Of a DNA stretch of 64,000 bases, positions 25,073 to 50,557 are shown piece after piece. Each line of letters begins with the position of its first letter. Position 1 is the stretch's first letter. The notes below the pieces were generated by a model. That model had not been told where the DNA came from and did no database searches. It worked only from the letters and a program-made list of their open reading frames with translations. Made by a program: the position numbers and the translations under genes. The stretch is from Kordiimonas sp. (GTDB lineage: Bacteria; Pseudomonadota; Alphaproteobacteria; Sphingomonadales; Emcibacteraceae): NCBI GenBank assembly GCA_002700365.1, contig PADB01000012.1, positions 124,001-188,000 on the forward strand, written 5' to 3'.

Positions 25073-25149
25073 CGGAACGTAGCGCAGCCTGGTAGCGCAC
25101 TTCACTGGGGGTGAAGGGGTCGCTGGTTCGAATCCAGTCGTTCCGACCA
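25073..25149 (+). tRNA. tRNA-Pro (anticodon GGG)
   Basis: A 77-base cloverleaf: acceptor CGGAACG pairs with CGTTCCG before A-CCA. The D arm contains AGCGCAGCCTGGTAGCGC, the anticodon loop CTGGGGG between CTTCA and TGAAG places GGG at 34-36, and the T arm is GCTGGTTCGAATCCAGT. The CCA end is encoded. Reads proline codons CCC and CCU. Confidence 0.95.
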
Positions 25150-25153
25150 TATT

Positions 25154-25192
25154 AAAAGCCTGTTTAACGATGATGTTAAGCAGGCTTTTTTT
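25154..25192 (+). terminator. Terminator after tRNA-Pro
   Basis: AAAAGCCTGTTTAAC is followed after six bases by GTTAAGCAGGCTTTTTTT, a long near-perfect stem with a run of seven T, directly behind the tRNA. Confidence 0.9.
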
Positions 25193-25287
25193 ATGATTAT
25201 GGTGCGGATATAGGCTGATTTAACAAATATTTAGCTTTGTTGCCATAGGTTGAGGCTCACCAAACAGTTGTGCTTCATGGGATGATT

Positions 25288-26409
25288 ATGTGGTTTAAAA
25301 CGAAGTTAATTATCTTTAGTTCTATTTTTCTTCTTATTGCCCTGGGTTACTATTTTGATAATTCCGGTCTGGTGGGGAAAAATGCAGATCATGTCATGCC
25401 GACAATGCTCATGGTGATGATTGGTGGGCTTATTGTATTGGCTATTATTCATTATCGTCATTTGCATAATCTAGAACTGAATTTGCGCCAGCAATTTGAG
25501 ACTATTTTCAAGACGAAGGTCATGGGATTTATGGCTGTGGATCGGGAAGGCTGGCTGCAAAATGGTAATCGTAAGGCGCTGAAATATTTTGGCCTTGAGA
25601 GCACTAACGTTCGCAAATTACACCTTAGTGATGTGTTGACGCCAGAGGCCGCCCGAAAAATTCAGGCGGATTTTATTGATAAAGAAGCTTTTGGTGAAAT
25701 CTATGAAGTAGAGGGACGGCGCAGCGATGGTGAATTATTTGATGTTGAAGTGTCCCTTGGGGAAATTCCATTATCACCAGGCGGGGATTTTACATTAATT
25801 GTTCGGGACATATCACGTCGGAAACGTCTGGAAAACCAGCTTCATCAGCAAATTTTACATCTGAAAGATGCAGAAGGGATAGCAGGCCTGGGTCATTGGC
25901 GTATGGATGTGCCGACGGGTAAAATTGAATGGTCTGATGAATGCTATAGAATTCATGGGTATGATCGTAGCGAATACACGCCTTCTTATGAGAGATTAGA
26001 AGAGTTTGTCCATCCTGATGAAGTTGATGACTTTAAATCATCCGTAGAGGAGATGATACATACCGGGCAGCCATCGGTGAAAAAAGTACGGATTTTCCGT
26101 CCAACAGGAGAGCTTCGCCATTTACAGGTTAAAAGTACCGTGAAGCCGGATGAGACCGGCCGGGTCATCGAAATGTTCGGTGTTATTCAAGATGTGACGG
26201 AGCGCGTAGAACAAGAGGAAAGCCTGCATAGAAATCAGGTCGAACTGGAACGCCGCGTTCTGGAATTGGAGGATTTGCATGTTCGTTTAGAGCAACAAGC
26301 TGCAGAATTAGTCCATATGTCAGAAGACTTGGCCATATCAAAAGAGGAGGCTGAGCACGCAACCATGGCAAAGTCAGAATTTCTGGCCACCATGAGTCAC
26401 GAGATTTGA
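25288..26409 (+). CDS. Sensor half of a hybrid histidine kinase, stopped by TGA at the H-box
   Basis: N-terminal part of a membrane sensor kinase. Two membrane spans (about 5-22 and 38-58 from the ATG at 25288) are followed by a PAS domain with FKTKVMGFMAVDREGWLQNGNRKALKYFG, a second PAS/PAC with GLGHWRMDVPTGKIEWSDECYRIHGYD, and a coiled coil. It ends at the start of the HisKA helix, ATMSHEI, where TGA (26407-26409) replaces the arginine codon of the normal HEIRTPMNG. The phosphoacceptor His is thus the second-last complete motif residue. An upstream GTG (25270) is an alternative start. Without the second half the product cannot signal as a kinase. Confidence 0.8.
   Translation: MWFKTKLIIFSSIFLLIALGYYFDNSGLVGKNADHVMPTMLMVMIGGLIVLAIIHYRHLHNLELNLRQQFETIFKTKVMGFMAVDREGWLQNGNRKALKYFGLESTNVRKLHLSDVLTPEAARKIQADFIDKEAFGEIYEVEGRRSDGELFDVEVSLGEIPLSPGGDFTLIVRDISRRKRLENQLHQQILHLKDAEGIAGLGHWRMDVPTGKIEWSDECYRIHGYDRSEYTPSYERLEEFVHPDEVDDFKSSVEEMIHTGQPSVKKVRIFRPTGELRHLQVKSTVKPDETGRVIEMFGVIQDVTERVEQEESLHRNQVELERRVLELEDLHVRLEQQAAELVHMSEDLAISKEEAEHATMAKSEFLATMSHEI
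26407..26409 (+). other. In-frame TGA inside the HisKA H-box
   Basis: The reading frame gives MSHEI-stop-TPMNGVLGM; the same frame continues for 411 residues. One transition (CGA to TGA) explains it. Frame is unchanged, so this is a nonsense change, not a frameshift. Confidence 0.85.
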
Positions 26410-26415
26410 ACGCCT

Positions 26416-27651
26416 ATGAACGGCGTTTTAGGGATGACATCCTTGTTGCTGGAAACGCCACTTACGGAACAACAACGGCATTATGCTGAAACCGGGCATG
26501 AATCAGCGCAGGCTCTTTTGACAATTATAAATGATATTCTGGACCTTTCCAAACTGGAGGCCGGGAAAGTAGAGCTAGAAAACCTTCCCTACAGTATTGA
26601 AAAATTGGTCGCGGGAGTAGCCACGCTGTTATCCGAACGTGCAAGCAGTAAGGGGGTACTATTGCAGGTGGAGGAGACAAGAGATATTCCCCCGCTATTA
26701 CAAGGTGACCCGACACGCCTGAAGCAGGTTTTATTTAATTTGGTTGGTAATGCCATCAAATTTACAGAACAAGGGCAAGTGACCGTCCGTACTGTTTATA
26801 GTAAATCGCAAGAGGGGCAGCCCGCACGATTACGATTTGAGGTGGTCGACAGTGGTATAGGCATATCAGAAGAGCAACAAAGCCTACTTTTTGATCGCTT
26901 CACGCAGGCGGACAACTCTATTACACGTAAGTTTGGAGGAACAGGGCTGGGACTGTCTATATGTCGGCAACTTGTCGAATTAATGGGAGGGCAGATTGGT
27001 GTGCACAGTGTTCTCGGTAAAGGGAGTACATTCTGGTTTGAGGTGCCGGCAGAGCTTTCAATGAAGGATATCGTTGAGGGGACGGAAAACCTTACAGGTC
27101 AGAAGGTTGCTGATGTTGTGACGAAACAGAAAGTTCTGGTGGCGGAAGACAATGAGATAAATCAAATGCTGATCCGTGCGCTATTGGAAAAATACGACCA
27201 TAGTGTCCGGATTGTAAGTAACGGTGTGGAAGCACTTGCGGCGATAGAAGCTGATGATTTTGATGTTGTTTTAATGGACATCCAGATGCCAGTCATGGAT
27301 GGCATTAGTTGCGCGCAGGAAATACGGAAGCTAGAGGGTGACAAAGGCCGTATTCCTATTATTGCGTTGACGGCAAATGCGATGAGTGGCCAAAAAGAAG
27401 AATATCTGGCGTCTGGGATGAACGGCTATGTATCAAAGCCTATAGATCAGCATAAATTAATAGTTGAAATGATGACGGTGACAGCAAACCGGACAAGAGT
27501 TCTTCCTGATAAAGTTGAAGAAATAATGCTCCCAGATGAGGCCATGGTTGATAACCAAACAGAGATAATTGCTAAAAAACGCACTATGGCAGATCAGGAG
27601 CAGCAAAAAGCTCTGAAAGATTTAGCGGCTAGTTTTGAAGATCTAATATGA
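26416..27651 (+). CDS. Catalytic and receiver half of the broken hybrid histidine kinase
   Basis: This frame continues directly from the stop at 26407-26409. It has the rest of the HisKA helix (MNGVLGMTSLLLETPLTEQQ), a HATPase_c domain (about 90-215) with N box LVGNAIKF, VVDSGIGIS and GGTGLGLSICRQLVELMGG, then a receiver domain (about 235-355) with VLVAEDNEINQML, phosphoacceptor in VLMDIQMPVMDG and YVSKPI. The first ATG sits 6 bp after the TGA, so reinitiation is conceivable, but no good ribosome binding site is seen. Cytosolic and lacking the phosphoacceptor His, it is probably non-functional alone. Confidence 0.78.
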   Translation: MNGVLGMTSLLLETPLTEQQRHYAETGHESAQALLTIINDILDLSKLEAGKVELENLPYSIEKLVAGVATLLSERASSKGVLLQVEETRDIPPLLQGDPTRLKQVLFNLVGNAIKFTEQGQVTVRTVYSKSQEGQPARLRFEVVDSGIGISEEQQSLLFDRFTQADNSITRKFGGTGLGLSICRQLVELMGGQIGVHSVLGKGSTFWFEVPAELSMKDIVEGTENLTGQKVADVVTKQKVLVAEDNEINQMLIRALLEKYDHSVRIVSNGVEALAAIEADDFDVVLMDIQMPVMDGISCAQEIRKLEGDKGRIPIIALTANAMSGQKEEYLASGMNGYVSKPIDQHKLIVEMMTVTANRTRVLPDKVEEIMLPDEAMVDNQTEIIAKKRTMADQEQQKALKDLAASFEDLI

Positions 27652-27836
27652 CGACCCGCCATAAGGCTCTATCATAGGCGGAGAACAGTGTCTGTTACAT
27701 AGTAGATTTTCTTTTTATTCCCTTATAAAAAGTGAGGCTGTATGGGCTTCTGTATTAGGGATATAATGGTGAGCGATGTATATTAAGAAAGCTCACAGAT
27801 GATGAGCCTGTTACATACACAGTATGAATGTAAATA

Positions 27837-28940
27837 ATGATTATTGGCATTCCTAAAGAAACGAAAATCCATGAGTACCGTGTCAGCATGACACCGGATG
27901 CGGTTGCGGACTTATGTGCGCATGGTCATGTTTGTTATGTGCAGCAGTCTGCCGGGGTGGCTGCCGGGTTTTCTGACAGGGATTACCAACAGGCGGGGGC
28001 GCATATTGCGACAACACGTGAAGAGGTTTTCCTGCTGGCGCAACTGATCGTCAAGGTCAAAGAGCCGCATAAGGAAGAAATCGCATTATTACGCCCGGAG
28101 CATATTTTGTTCACTTTTTTGCACCTGGCGGCGGTGCCAGATATTGCGGCCCTTTTGTTGGCATCTGGTTGTACTGCGATTGCCTATGAGACGGTGACCG
28201 ATGATAAGGGGCGCCTGCCGTTGCTGATGCCTATGAGCATGGTGGCTGGTCGCATGGCTATTCAGGCCGCCGCCCGCTGCCTAGAGCAGGAATACGGGGG
28301 TAAAGGCCTGCTGATGTCGGGTATCCGGGATGTCCCTGCGGCAAAAGTTATTATCATTGGGGCCGGCACAGTAGGTCGTAATGCGGCGATGGTGGCGATA
28401 GGGATGGGGGCAGATGTTATCGTTATTGATAAACAGGCAGCCAGTTTACAGGCGATCAAGAAGGAGTATGGGGAGAGGATAGAAACTGTTCTCTATAGCC
28501 CTGAAAATTTGATGACTTATTTGGCGCAGGCCGATGTGATTGTCGGGGCCGCGTTACAGGCAGGGAAGCGTGCCCCTAAGATTTTGACCCGTCAGCATCT
28601 GAAGACTTTGCAACATGGAACTGTTTTGGTTGATGTTTCTATAGATCAGGGGGGCTGTTTTGAAAGTAGTCGTCCGACAACACATGCAGATCCCAGTTAT
28701 ATAGAAGAAGGTATTGTACATTATTGTGTGACCAATATGCCGGGGGCTGTACCGCGTACTTCAACCATGGCTCTTTCGCAGACGACCTTGCCATATATAC
28801 TGAGACTGGCCAATAAGGGGGTGGCAGATGCCATGAACGATAAATATGGGTTAGTCGATGGGATAAATATTCATGCAGGAAAAATATATCACGAAGCTGT
28901 CGCGTCAGCTTTGCAGCAAGTCAAAACAAAGGGCGCATAA
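27837..28940 (+). CDS. ald: Alanine dehydrogenase
   Basis: NAD-dependent oxidative deamination of L-alanine to pyruvate, or the reverse. The 367 residues show the N-terminal signature MIIGIPKETKIHEYRVSMTP, FTFLHLAAVP, the Rossmann loop VIIIGAGTVGRNAAMVAIGMGA, VLVDVSIDQGGCFESSRPTTH and VTNMPGAVPRTSTMALSQTTLPY. It is followed by the malic enzyme after 127 bp; both feed pyruvate metabolism, though a shared transcript is not certain. Confidence 0.95.
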   Translation: MIIGIPKETKIHEYRVSMTPDAVADLCAHGHVCYVQQSAGVAAGFSDRDYQQAGAHIATTREEVFLLAQLIVKVKEPHKEEIALLRPEHILFTFLHLAAVPDIAALLLASGCTAIAYETVTDDKGRLPLLMPMSMVAGRMAIQAAARCLEQEYGGKGLLMSGIRDVPAAKVIIIGAGTVGRNAAMVAIGMGADVIVIDKQAASLQAIKKEYGERIETVLYSPENLMTYLAQADVIVGAALQAGKRAPKILTRQHLKTLQHGTVLVDVSIDQGGCFESSRPTTHADPSYIEEGIVHYCVTNMPGAVPRTSTMALSQTTLPYILRLANKGVADAMNDKYGLVDGINIHAGKIYHEAVASALQQVKTKGA

Positions 28941-46415: not shown

Positions 46416-46511
46416 GCTGAAAACCACCGTAAAAAATATGCCATTTTTGATAAAAAGTGGTTGACCATAGAGGCGCTTATCATTACACATCTGCTCACAC
46501 CAGCCATGCTG

Positions 46512-46586
46512 GCCCCTTCGTCTAGTGGTCTAGGACGCCGCCCTTTCACGGCGGAAACACGGGTTCGAGTCCCGTAGGGGTCACCA
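46512..46586 (+). tRNA. tRNA-Glu (anticodon TTC), attachment site of the island
   Basis: A 75-base cloverleaf beginning GCCCCTTCGTCTAGTGGTC; the acceptor GCCCCTT pairs with AGGGGT, the anticodon loop CTTTCAC lies between CCGCC and GGCGG, and the T arm is CACGGGTTCGAGTCCCGT... ending CACCA. The gene is intact. Its last 15 bases begin a 26-bp sequence that is repeated at 50857-50882. Confidence 0.95.
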
Positions 46587-46597
46587 GGCTGGTTTTT
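46572..46597. repeat. Left attachment repeat (attL-like), 26 bp
   Basis: Starts CCGTAGGGGTCACCAGG in the tRNA-Glu 3' end and continues CTGGTTTTT into the spacer. Identical over 26 bases to 50857-50882. Confidence 0.9.
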
Positions 46598-46814
46598 ATC
46601 CCTTTGATATCATTGGTCTTTTTCGCCTGTTCCCCGCACCGGGAACGAAGGTTCGGGGCTAGGCTCTCCTAAGATGTGATAGAGTATATTAAGAAAGATG
46701 AGCATGACTTGAAAGAAATGCGTACTCTACTTTCTAGCTATCTGTCGCAGCCCTTAAAATAGATAAAACTACCCTTACTAATTTGTTGCAGTTACATTTA
46801 TCCTCATATGGTGA

Positions 46815-47246
46815 ATGTGCCGGGGGCTTCAGAGGCTTCGGAAGACAGCGCAGGAAATTGTATTGAGGGCGGGCCTAGCAACTGGCTTCGAATTTCTGGT
46901 GCTGATTGATTTGGGGGCTGGGGAAATAATCTATTGCGGAACGACTGAACAGACGACTCGTGTCGGGCTGCCTTCTTATGATGTGTTCAAGGGAAAGGCG
47001 GTGGAAGTACACCATAATCACCCGCGTTCAAGCCCCTTGTCTGTGGAAGATGTGCTGACCGCCGCGCATTATGAGGAGATCATAAGAATGTACGCTCACG
47101 GCCATGACGGGCGATCCTGGGGCTGTGAAATCAAGAAGCGTTGGGGGTTAATACCCGCGCTGCACAAGGCCGTTATAGACAAGGGAGAGGGTGGTTTTAT
47201 AGAAGGGTTGGCCGCTGATGGTCTGGTGGATGCCTGCGGGCCATAA
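46815..47246 (+). CDS. JAB/MPN-like metallopeptidase-fold protein, possibly 5'-truncated
   Basis: The 143 residues contain GFEFLVLIDLGAGEIIYCG (26-42) followed by VEVHHNHPRSSPLSVEDV (63-80). The HxHP-x(5)-S-x(2)-D pattern (His67, His69, Ser76, Asp79) is that of JAB/MPN proteins such as RadC and phage-encoded relatives. The C-terminus is unassigned. An alternative frame from ATG 46808 (MVNVPGASEASEDSAGN) runs only 33 codons and may be the original start, so the gene could have suffered a frameshift. Function unknown. Confidence 0.5.
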   Translation: MCRGLQRLRKTAQEIVLRAGLATGFEFLVLIDLGAGEIIYCGTTEQTTRVGLPSYDVFKGKAVEVHHNHPRSSPLSVEDVLTAAHYEEIIRMYAHGHDGRSWGCEIKKRWGLIPALHKAVIDKGEGGFIEGLAADGLVDACGP

Positions 47247-47477
47247 AGGACCTCGCCGGAGCGGGGTTAGGAAGCATAATCGTTTATTAGAAGCTTCTCA
47301 ATAAAATCACTCTTTGCGACACATGATTTCAGCCCATAATTTTGGCGGTTTATTTTGAAAGAGGCTGTTGTTTTAAGGTAAATAGATAAAGAGGGTGTGC
47401 GTGGGGTAAAGTGCAGGGGAAATAGTGTGATGATTGTTGTCGTCCCTTATGATAAAAGAAGCGCTGGAGAGCCTTAA

Positions 47478-47570
47478 ATGACAGCCATTGAATGGACAGA
47501 AGTAACGTTGAAGCCCGTCAAGGGGTCAGCATCGTTCAGACGGCTGCGAATATCTGCCGACGTTGGATAA
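47478..47570 (+). pseudogene. Remnant resembling the N-terminus of DUF5131 (phage Gp37/Gp68) proteins
   Basis: A 30-codon frame begins MTAIEWTEVTLKPVKG, close to the family's start (xxIEWTxxTWNPVxG), then diverges and stops at TAA 47568-47570. The family is a radical-SAM-like phage protein; only a stub remains. In another frame a 47-residue ORF (47492-47635) overlaps the start of the next gene, with no recognisable similarity. The 360-bp gap 47247-47606 holds nothing else I can identify. Confidence 0.35.
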
Positions 47571-47606
47571 CGTCTGATGAATTCGTGAACAAAGAACTGA
47601 AGAAGA

Positions 47607-48275
47607 ATGAATGTGAGCAATCTGAAGCCAACTGAAGAAGAAAGAGCATTATGTGCGGTGGTTAACCTGCTGGAAGGCGATATCCGGCAGGAGCACTTCA
47701 TTGCAACTGAGGTTCCTTTCGCCAACCGTAGCCGTAGAGCGGACTTGGTGATGGTGGGTAAAGCTACATGGGGTATTGAGGTAAAGTCACCTGCGGACAA
47801 GATTGAAAATGCAATAGCCCAACTTGAAGATTACCGGCAGTTTTTTGATTTCGTCGTACTTGCAAGTACTCCAGAACAAATCAAGCGAGTATTCAAAGAC
47901 ATTCCTCGTCAGATTGGCTTGATTGAACTTTCAGGCGCAACCGCTACATGGCGCAGGGTGCCGCTAGCAATCAATCGTCATAACAAAGCGTATTTGGCTG
48001 GTTTTCTTGACCGGTCCACATTGCAATCACTGCTTTCTAGTCAAGAAATCGAGCGAGACAGTCTCATATCCGTGCTGAGGAACTTGGCGACCAAACATAT
48101 CTCGACTTCTGTTCTTCAGACAGCGATGAAAGAGCGTATGACCGCCAAGATGCGCCCACACTTCCAACAGTTTATTCAGGAATTTAACGGCATGTGCTGG
48201 CCAGATGATCTGGACACTATCCGTTACCGAGACGAAGACGCTACAGGCTTTCGAGTAAGCGAACCCTCCTCGTGA
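47607..48275 (+). CDS. PD-(D/E)XK nuclease-like protein (MmcB/sce7726-like)
   Basis: The 222-residue protein has a restriction-endonuclease-like core: Glu35 in ATEVPF, Asp46 in RRADLVMV, Glu58-Val-Lys60 in WGIEVKSP, and Gln72 in the following helix (IAQLEDYRQFFDFVVLAS). This is the same layout as MmcB and the uncharacterised sce7726 group. The C-terminal half (residues 100-222) is unassigned. It is convergent with the beta-family gene and the two 3' ends overlap by 35 bp. A DNA-targeting role in defence or repair is inferred, not shown. Confidence 0.65.
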   Translation: MNVSNLKPTEEERALCAVVNLLEGDIRQEHFIATEVPFANRSRRADLVMVGKATWGIEVKSPADKIENAIAQLEDYRQFFDFVVLASTPEQIKRVFKDIPRQIGLIELSGATATWRRVPLAINRHNKAYLAGFLDRSTLQSLLSSQEIERDSLISVLRNLATKHISTSVLQTAMKERMTAKMRPHFQQFIQEFNGMCWPDDLDTIRYRDEDATGFRVSEPSS

Positions 48276-49365
48276 TATGAATATTCTCACGAATGGCAAT
48301 CCATGAAGCAGGCCCGCGCCCAACATCTTTGTCATGAGCGGCAGCGAGTCTGATCTGCTTATCACCCCAGCTATCACACGACTCATATTCAGGGTCATTC
48401 AACATATACTCTGCCGCCAAATCGTATCCAGCGTAAGGCTTGCCCACAATCTCACGCCTATACCGGTGATAAATGTATTTATCGGCCATTGGGGCATCCA
48501 CACGCGGAACCCAATTGTATCCTAAAGCATTATAGCGCAACGGATGAATTGACGCGTAATCACCGTATGTTAATGAATCAATCCCTCTGTCACGCAAGCG
48601 CAAAAACATGGTCCACTCCAACATCGGAAAAATACCATGCCGATCATCGCCATAATTCTTTTGAGCTACCATCTGGGGAAAAGATGAACCGATCGGGACA
48701 TAGGTCTTGGGACTGCCCAAGCCCAAGTTTTCAATCTTGGCAATAATATCCATTACACAGTCGGCAAACCTACCCATCTCTCCATATGGAATAAAGCCTA
48801 CATCAATCATGAGAATGCAGTTTCTGGTATTGTCCAGTGCTTCAAATACAGGCCGGACGAAATCTTCCACATCATCATCGAAAAATTCAAACGCCGATGA
48901 ATCGTCTTCGTCGTGCTCCACACAGCCAATGCGAAGGCACACAGCCCCAAAGTCAGCCTCAAGCTGTCTAGCCTGCTCTGTCAGGTTATCAACAGATGCA
49001 TCTCCATCAAGCAAAAGCGTTGGGATTAAAGAGGCCCAATCATGGGAGACTAAGAAGTTCCGCCAATTCTGATAGCCATCGGTTTCATCGAAAAACTGCT
49101 TGATTTCCTTATTCTGAAATCGCTCTTCGCCAATCAAATCAAGGATAAATGGGCGCTCCCCCATAATATCCTGAATAACCTTCATCCGACGCTCTACTTT
49201 GCTGTCAGGATTGGTGTTTTTGTGGAAACGGCTTTTTGTAAGTTCAAACATTGGACATAGGGCATCTAGCACATCGCCGCTCAAATTGTGCATGCCCTTT
49301 AACTCAGCATCCGATGTTTTCATCACCGGAATATACCGCTGCTGCTCCAATCGCCCCCTGTTCAT
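48241..49365 (-). CDS. Beta-protein family (T4 beta-like) protein
   Basis: The 374 residues begin RYIPVMKTSDAELKGMHNL, the (Y-x-P-x-x-K-x-x-x-x-E-L-x-A/G-L) start of the Beta_protein family named after a bacteriophage T4 protein. Acidic loops (DDDVEDF), ILMIDVGFIPYG and YGDYASIHP fit a TIM-barrel-like family body. The molecular role is unknown; related genes are frequent in accessory regions near HTH or ImmA-type genes. Its ATG directly follows the ImmA stop (TAAATG), so it is the last gene of a three-gene operon. Confidence 0.75.
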   Translation of the reverse strand: MNRGRLEQQRYIPVMKTSDAELKGMHNLSGDVLDALCPMFELTKSRFHKNTNPDSKVERRMKVIQDIMGERPFILDLIGEERFQNKEIKQFFDETDGYQNWRNFLVSHDWASLIPTLLLDGDASVDNLTEQARQLEADFGAVCLRIGCVEHDEDDSSAFEFFDDDVEDFVRPVFEALDNTRNCILMIDVGFIPYGEMGRFADCVMDIIAKIENLGLGSPKTYVPIGSSFPQMVAQKNYGDDRHGIFPMLEWTMFLRLRDRGIDSLTYGDYASIHPLRYNALGYNWVPRVDAPMADKYIYHRYRREIVGKPYAGYDLAAEYMLNDPEYESCDSWGDKQIRLAAAHDKDVGRGPASWIAIRENIHITRRVRLLESL

Positions 49366-49926
49366 TTACAGGCCGTGCCCCGTCATTCCCAAAGTCTTCG
49401 CCCGAATGCGAACTGCCATTGTAGAAACCCCAAAATAAGTCGCTAACTGATCGAATGAATTTTTACCTTCTGCAACTCTATCGCGAAATTCCTGTTCGGG
49501 CATCAGGAATTCAGCCGCAAATTGATTAGCTTGCCATTCATCCGGATCGGATTTCGCATCTGCACGTGTAAACGCATAATTATCATCATATGCCTTGGCC
49601 TTATGACGATGCAGGAAGTAATGCCCCAACTCGTGAGCCATCGTAAATCTCTGCCTGTTTGGGTGATGCAAGCTATTTATGCCGATTACCCAACCTGATC
49701 CCTCTGGATGCAGAAAGCCAGATTGATCATCCCGCATCGGCTTACGTACTAATCGAATTCCCAACCTTTCAATAAATTGCTCTATGTGTCCATCATGATT
49801 TCCGAAGCCCATTTGCTCATATAGATTCTTTGCCTCACTACTGTTGTTTGCTCCTTGGCCAATTTCAACAGTGCGGACGGGCCTTGTGGGTCTGTTTCTC
49901 TTTCTTCTAACGACTGCCATTTTCAT
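49366..49926 (-). CDS. ImmA/IrrE-family zinc metallopeptidase
   Basis: The 186 residues have a basic N-terminus and a gluzincin core: FTMAHELGHYFLHRH with HExxH at His98-His102, and PDEWQANQFAAEFLMPEQEF with the third ligand glutamate at about 130. A helical C-terminus (FDQLATYFGVSTMAVRIRAKTLGM) resembles a small HTH. ImmA-type peptidases cleave repressors in ICEs, and many occur in toxin-antitoxin and defence loci. No XRE partner is present here. The gene overlaps its upstream neighbour by 20 bp and abuts the beta-family gene. Confidence 0.88.
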   Translation of the reverse strand: MKMAVVRRKRNRPTRPVRTVEIGQGANNSSEAKNLYEQMGFGNHDGHIEQFIERLGIRLVRKPMRDDQSGFLHPEGSGWVIGINSLHHPNRQRFTMAHELGHYFLHRHKAKAYDDNYAFTRADAKSDPDEWQANQFAAEFLMPEQEFRDRVAEGKNSFDQLATYFGVSTMAVRIRAKTLGMTGHGL

Positions 49927-50557
49927 CCTCCCCCTTTATATAATCATCATCTGGGGACATTTCAATTTTAACAGGCAAATCCTTATCTTCCTTAAATGCA
50001 TCGAGATGAGCCAAACGGTCTTCTATCAAGTGCAGTCGGTCTTGCAATAGATCAATTTTTGAAAGTGCGTCAGAAAACCTCTCCAACTCTGGAATAAATT
50101 CTAGGCCAAACTCGCTATCAAATGCATTCGATGCCGCTTCGTTAAGGGTTTCAGTATTAACTTTAGCCTTGAAAGCCCTTTCGACTTCCTTTTCAGCCAT
50201 ATCTTCTGCCGCTGCCCTCGATTGGCCGCGAATATACAGATATGCCACCACACCCAATAGAGTGAGCAAGGCTAATTGAATTTGAAACACGTTCGAATAA
50301 AACACGTGCAAGCTATCAAGTAACATTGATGGCGATACGACATCGCCGTTTGCTATCAACAATTCCAGCAGTTCTTCTTCTTCTGCGGTGAGAGGGACAT
50401 TCATCGAACCATCAGTAAAGATCGCACGCTGAGAAAAATGGACATCGTGCATAGTGACTAATGCACCGATACCAAAGACCCCAAAAGCAGCCCCTGCAAA
50501 TATCATCACGCCCCGAACTATATAATCCAGCCCAGCCAAAAAAATTCTTCCGCTCAC
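49907..50557 (-). CDS. Two-TM coiled-coil protein, first gene of the island operon
   Basis: I do not recognise the family. The 216 residues have two hydrophobic segments (about 13-35 and 88-109), an acidic stretch between them (LTAEEEELLELL), then a long charged helical region with heptad-like FSDALSKIDLLQDRLHLIEDRLAHL (about 161-185) and an acidic tail. This predicts a membrane anchor with a cytosolic coiled coil. The 3' end overlaps the ImmA gene by 20 bp. Such two-TM subunits are often the effector in defence systems; that is inference. Confidence 0.65.
   Translation of the reverse strand: MSGRIFLAGLDYIVRGVMIFAGAAFGVFGIGALVTMHDVHFSQRAIFTDGSMNVPLTAEEEELLELLIANGDVVSPSMLLDSLHVFYSNVFQIQLALLTLLGVVAYLYIRGQSRAAAEDMAEKEVERAFKAKVNTETLNEAASNAFDSEFGLEFIPELERFSDALSKIDLLQDRLHLIEDRLAHLDAFKEDKDLPVKIEMSPDDDYIKGEDENGSR

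Follow-up and report, generated by a model that had tools for sequence, protein, structure and literature searches.

A hybrid histidine kinase gene of Kordiimonas sp. with one in-frame TGA in its H-box: a probable recent inactivation

The interrupted kinase frame

The DNA analysed here, called the window, is a stretch of 64,000 nucleotides from the genome of Kordiimonas sp., an assembly of 2.40 Mb in 12 contigs that is rated 100% complete and 0% contaminated. Between a tRNA gene and a gene of the alanine dehydrogenase family it carries a frame of 787 codons (25288–27651) with a single internal stop and no frameshift. The following features were located, all on the forward strand:

25073–25149, +: tRNA-Pro(GGG), the upstream neighbour (ARAGORN)
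25154–25189, +: terminator-like hairpin with a T tail, in the gap that separates tRNA-Pro from the kinase frame (consensus scan)
25288–26409, +: upstream open reading frame from the ATG at 25288, with an alternative GTG start at 25270; hydrophobic N-terminal stretches (by eye), two PAS regions, a linker and the HisKA helix from its start to H-E-I (open reading frame list, translation, Pfam)
26407–26409, +: in-frame TGA inside the H-box (translation, Pfam across the stop)
26410–27651, +: downstream fragment with the remaining HisKA, HATPase_c, a receiver domain and a short tail (open reading frame list, translation, Pfam)
27837–28940, +: gene of the alanine dehydrogenase/PNT family, the downstream neighbour (open reading frame list, Pfam)

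When the stop was read as X, the Pfam HisKA domain was matched across it at full length (66 of 66 positions) with a score of 75.5 bits, the cut-off being 26.9, and the downstream half alone gave a HisKA match from profile position 15 onwards (15–66, 49 bits). Since the domain is continuous across the TGA, the locus represents one gene cut in two and not two adjoining genes. The initial annotation, which had described a hybrid histidine kinase cut by one TGA in its H-box, was thereby confirmed. Its statement that everything else is intact for 411 further residues also held, as the frame stays open and yields HATPase_c at 112.1 bits and Response_reg at 95.2 bits, both far over their Pfam cut-offs. 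The N, G1, F and G2 motifs of HATPase_c were present as judged by eye, and so were the acidic pair, phospho-Asp and Lys of the receiver. No HPt domain was among the Pfam matches of the kinase halves. The locus thus encodes a HisKA domain with its His, a HATPase_c domain and a receiver, as in a hybrid histidine kinase, but not an uninterrupted polypeptide. As read from the sequence, the ancestral gene is predicted to be a hybrid histidine kinase with the order membrane stretch, PAS, PAS, HisKA, HATPase_c, receiver.

Around the stop, the translation reads FLATMSHEI, stop, TPMNGVLGM, so that the conserved phospho-acceptor His is followed by E, I and the TGA. Codon usage is coding-like on either side (15.5 bits upstream and 13.2 bits downstream, over 60 codons each), with GC3 values of 0.41 and 0.43. 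Past the stop, the first ATG lies at 26416, at a distance of six bases, and opens a frame of 411 amino acids (26416–27651). The place of the stop had been called striking; it does lie in the H-box beside the His, but 49 codons of the kinase frame are a stop already or one transition from a stop. As the stop is one event among these 49 candidate codons, its position is eye-catching yet statistically weak and deserves little weight.

Phase variation had also been proposed, by which the stop would be toggled in a switching or mixed population. Apart from the lesion being confined to a single codon, nothing speaks for it, and the surrounding sequence (26381–26440, by eye) has neither an evident short repeat nor a run of more than four bases. 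A substitution is not a usual switching mechanism, and this explanation is considered extremely unlikely.

Decoding of UGA in the genome

The genome was searched for means of reading UGA as sense. Release factor 2 (prfB) is present, with 531 bits (cut-off 370) and a match that begins inside the end of the window. Open stop-to-stop stretches of at least 300 codons, counted on both strands of the window for genes and non-coding frames alike and including the target TGA itself, end in TAA 16 times, in TAG seven times and in TGA seven times; as TGA ends seven of these long stretches, it is a normal stop here. No match to selA was found in the genome by a search that, run identically on 14 control genomes, exceeded the cut-off in one. 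The only tRNA-Sec match over the cut-off (48.7 versus 47 bits) coincides with a tRNA-Ser(tga) gene. No UGA-reading anticodon (tca/UCA) occurs among the 36 tRNA genes that the Rfam model detected and ARAGORN typed, a list that may be incomplete since it contains neither tRNA-Ile(gat) nor tRNA-Ala(tgc). The anticodon stem of tRNA-Trp comprises 5 bp; a tRNA-Trp with a stem of 4 bp has been reported to read UGA in bacteria (PMC13092985).

A search for 16S rRNA gave no match in this genome and also missed five of 14 control genomes. The rRNA operon may be unassembled even though the assembly is rated 100% complete, and a few tRNA genes, among them a possible UGA decoder, may lie in the unassembled stretch. 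The missing 16S match and the absence of tRNA-Ile(gat) and tRNA-Ala(tgc) leave some room for such a decoder.

Even without a dedicated decoder, near-cognate tRNA-Trp could read through the UGA and supply a little full-length kinase that is still of use to the cell. The base after the stop is A, and in E. coli this context has been described as making misreading by tRNA-Trp particularly likely (cited from older work in PMC5289835); the intact downstream domains would fit low-level readthrough. On the other hand, the genome showed no dedicated decoder, tRNA-Trp has a stem of 5 bp, RF2 is present, and no ortholog was found in which the stop could be seen to be conserved. Leaky readthrough of UGA-A, or reinitiation at the ATG at 26416, may occur, and nothing shows that it is programmed. 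The residue at the site in homologs also bears on this, as described below, and useful readthrough is considered quite unlikely overall.

Homologs, genomic slot and other in-frame stops

Homologous loci, none of which is an ortholog, were aligned over the site, and 115 of 116 carry Arg and one Lys at the residue of the stop, with a stop in none. Arg was found in seven of seven loci of the same genome (taken from at least 40 other places, with two of the seven being the same gene), in 28 of 29 loci of relatives, the remaining one having Lys, and in all 80 wider loci, which are the best 80 of 590 confirmed and no nearer than those of the relatives. Because Arg or Lys occupies the site in all 116 loci, a product with Trp would be off consensus, which argues against readthrough. 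Stop readthrough was another option of the initial annotation; as a programmed event it is unsupported by RF2, selA, tRNA-Sec, the 36 anticodons, the tRNA-Trp stem and the homologous loci alike.

At the site, the codon is CGA in six of the 116 loci and another codon in 110. The exact substitution from CGA to TGA that had been suggested is plausible; no ortholog of the kinase that would give the ancestral codon was found among the relatives searched.

The same alignments bear on the reading as a split gene, in which two proteins would be made by reinitiation at the ATG at 26416 and the ATPase-receiver piece would act on other kinases or regulators. This ATG opens its frame just past the stop, near enough for coupled reinitiation. 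However, the break lies inside a domain and not between domains, no homologous locus has a stop at the site, and no Shine-Dalgarno-like run is seen by eye directly ahead of the ATG. At six bases past a stop, coupled reinitiation does not strictly need a Shine-Dalgarno sequence. Taken together, a split gene is very unlikely.

At least five matches in relatives had been flagged for internal stops (G032:C8, G001:C5, G052:C2, G024:C16 and G045:C44). All but G052 were realigned by tblastn, and the four stretches, one of which repeats an aligned locus (L018), have Arg at the site; three are without a stop in the tblastn alignment, and in G045 the stop lies far downstream, at query position 638. This hybrid kinase match (L224, G045:C44) has its internal stop in or near the receiver domain.

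Among the 60 genomes compared, its own included, Kordiimonas sp. is the sole member of its genus. The top 30 matches listed for relatives show 40–50% identity, mainly over the kinase core. For the sensor half, a search of the order at E<=1e-30 covered 396 genomes, a sample of a larger group with up to five candidates scored per listed genome, and it matched its own genome but none of the other 395. Among plasmids, the sensor half matched 323 records, all below 60% identity, with the five listed at 26–27%.

tRNA-Pro(GGG) and the alanine dehydrogenase gene bound a slot (25073–27840) whose content differs across the family. The family was represented by 32 genomes, and in 28 of them, its own among these, the MerR-like neighbour was found. 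In 15 of the 27 relatives the slot after MerR was searched by tblastn (only 1.8 kb in one of them, L221), and neither kinase half was matched at E<=1e-3. A tRNA-Pro(ggg) gene is present in nine of these 15 slots, and the alanine dehydrogenase gene with malic enzyme in one (G003), where the homolog of the alanine dehydrogenase gene adjoins malic enzyme at L207. This genome alone has both flanks, MerR with tRNA-Pro and alanine dehydrogenase with malic enzyme, and contains about five other open frames between them. Another relative (G001, L209) has an integrase-like frame past tRNA-Pro, named from its sequence by eye; in the window itself, no mobile element was shown. The variable slot makes the kinase look like an accessory gene, and the loss of such a gene would not be surprising.

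Elsewhere in the window, the region 46511–50557 lies 3' of a tRNA-Glu gene (46511). It contains a Beta_protein family gene (48241–49365; PF14350, 142.6 bits), an IrrE-like Peptidase_M78 gene (49366–49926; PF06114, 102 bits) and a frame without a Pfam match (47607–48275). The region may, as a guess, be a small island of mobile or defence genes.

To put the stop into the context of the genome, 20 stretches of 20 kb were scanned together with the window, which amounts to 464 kb of 2.40 Mb. There, 310 in-frame stops are flanked on either side by 60 or more open codons, and 24 of them, the target included, have coding-like codon usage on both sides; these counts come from the looser of two scans, as the target was lost at a stricter threshold, which kept six stops. 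Each of the 24 was then compared with Pfam over 150 codons each way, for in-frame stops and not for frameshifts, and the best stretch per domain was taken. The target was the only one of the 24 with its best domain stretch running across the stop. For 21 of the other 23, the best stretches end at or before the stop or start after it, with only one side matched for a few. Most of these are simply pairs of genes, for example ribosomal protein, pyruvate dehydrogenase or flagellar export genes, and in one of the 21 (L130:9580) the only match is far under the family cut-off and ends at the stop. The remaining two (L122:4076 and L135:12165) had no Pfam match. As no other domain-spanning in-frame stop was found in the 464 kb, a genome-wide trend of this type of gene loss is not apparent.

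Three further matches of the same genome had been flagged for internal stops and were rejected on the basis of the open reading frame tables: one (C3:251990) reaches the terminal stop of its own gene, and two (C1:468532 and C1:607475) each span a kinase gene and the adjoining regulator gene.

The solitary stop can also be seen as a base-call or assembly error, in which case the gene would be intact in the organism and the TGA not real. This is the main rival explanation. It fits with the otherwise intact frame and with the fact that no other domain-spanning stop was found in the 464 kb. When one genome was resequenced, 28 of its 73 interrupted coding sequences turned out to be sequencing errors (PMC1852416). 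Miscalls were not seen among these 28, a result that the authors ascribe to the detection program, and the set therefore has little bearing on substitutions. The completeness of 100%, contamination of 0% and low number of contigs (12) suggest good base quality without proving it. An error is regarded as unlikely, if less so than the other rivals.

Interpretation and comparison with known systems

The locus is probably best explained as a lineage-specific accessory hybrid kinase that was lately inactivated by one in-frame nonsense codon in the phospho-acceptor helix. Among the four options that the initial annotation had offered, a recent null mutation is therefore the best supported. We infer both the loss of function and its recency; as no second lesion was found in the frame, the gene was probably broken recently on an evolutionary scale. 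The upstream product would stop two residues past the His, without the ATP-binding domain. Translation restarted at the ATG at 26416 would give a product that has the ATPase and the receiver and misses the His. Judged by the general architecture of kinases, neither piece should autophosphorylate. Misreading of UGA-A may give traces of full-length protein with an off-consensus residue.

A more far-fetched idea, to which next to no credence is given, would make UGA-A a leaky dial. Rare misreading would supply a little full-length kinase, termination with reinitiation at 26416 would yield mostly a His-less ATPase-receiver protein acting as phosphate sink or phosphatase, and the stop would set the ratio of kinase to antagonist.

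If the inactivating stop is real, a bacterium with a small genome, alphaproteobacterial by the look of the neighbouring genes, has recently lost one of its sensors. The importance of the stop is then mostly one of annotation: the gene ought to be flagged as broken instead of being entered as two proteins. The stop would gain in importance only if regulated readthrough were proven, and the reading preferred here is an ordinary one.

Several known systems resemble the locus in part. Cases of UGA recoding (selenocysteine, codes with UGA as Trp, and tRNA-Trp with a stem of 4 bp, the last as described in PMC13092985) share with it an in-frame UGA and an intact coding sequence after it. Unlike these, Kordiimonas sp. 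gave no selA match and no UCA anticodon, and has a tRNA-Trp stem of 5 bp, RF2 and TGA as an ordinary stop.

Among hybrid kinases, the core of HisKA, HATPase_c and receiver in the downstream half matches the BarA, TorS and ArcB types best (NCBIfam PRK11107, TIGR02956 and PRK11091), in a ranking of the 25 families listed of 152 matched, with the two halves scored apart. The scores are 394.1 of 890, 370.6 of 676.5 and 305.8 of 838 bits, respectively, and thus all far under the curated cut-offs. An assignment as BarA/GacS equivalog was rejected, as its model (PRK11107) scored that far below its cut-off with the downstream half and was not among the matches listed for the upstream half. The locus further differs from BarA, TorS and ArcB by a sensor half with two PAS regions for which no ortholog was found, and by the stop in the H-box.

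Genes of two-component kinases have been found split or broken in various ways, for example cckA and pleC in Wolbachia (PMC4426382). A published case with a stop at this exact residue was not met in a limited literature search, which is no proof of absence. The closest likeness is to interrupted coding sequences and recent pseudogenes, of which the former make up a small percentage in all bacterial genomes according to PMC2277376. As in these, an otherwise intact gene is broken by an in-frame stop across which homology is continuous. In comparison with interrupted coding sequences, the lesion here consists of one stop, with no indel, beside the active-site His.
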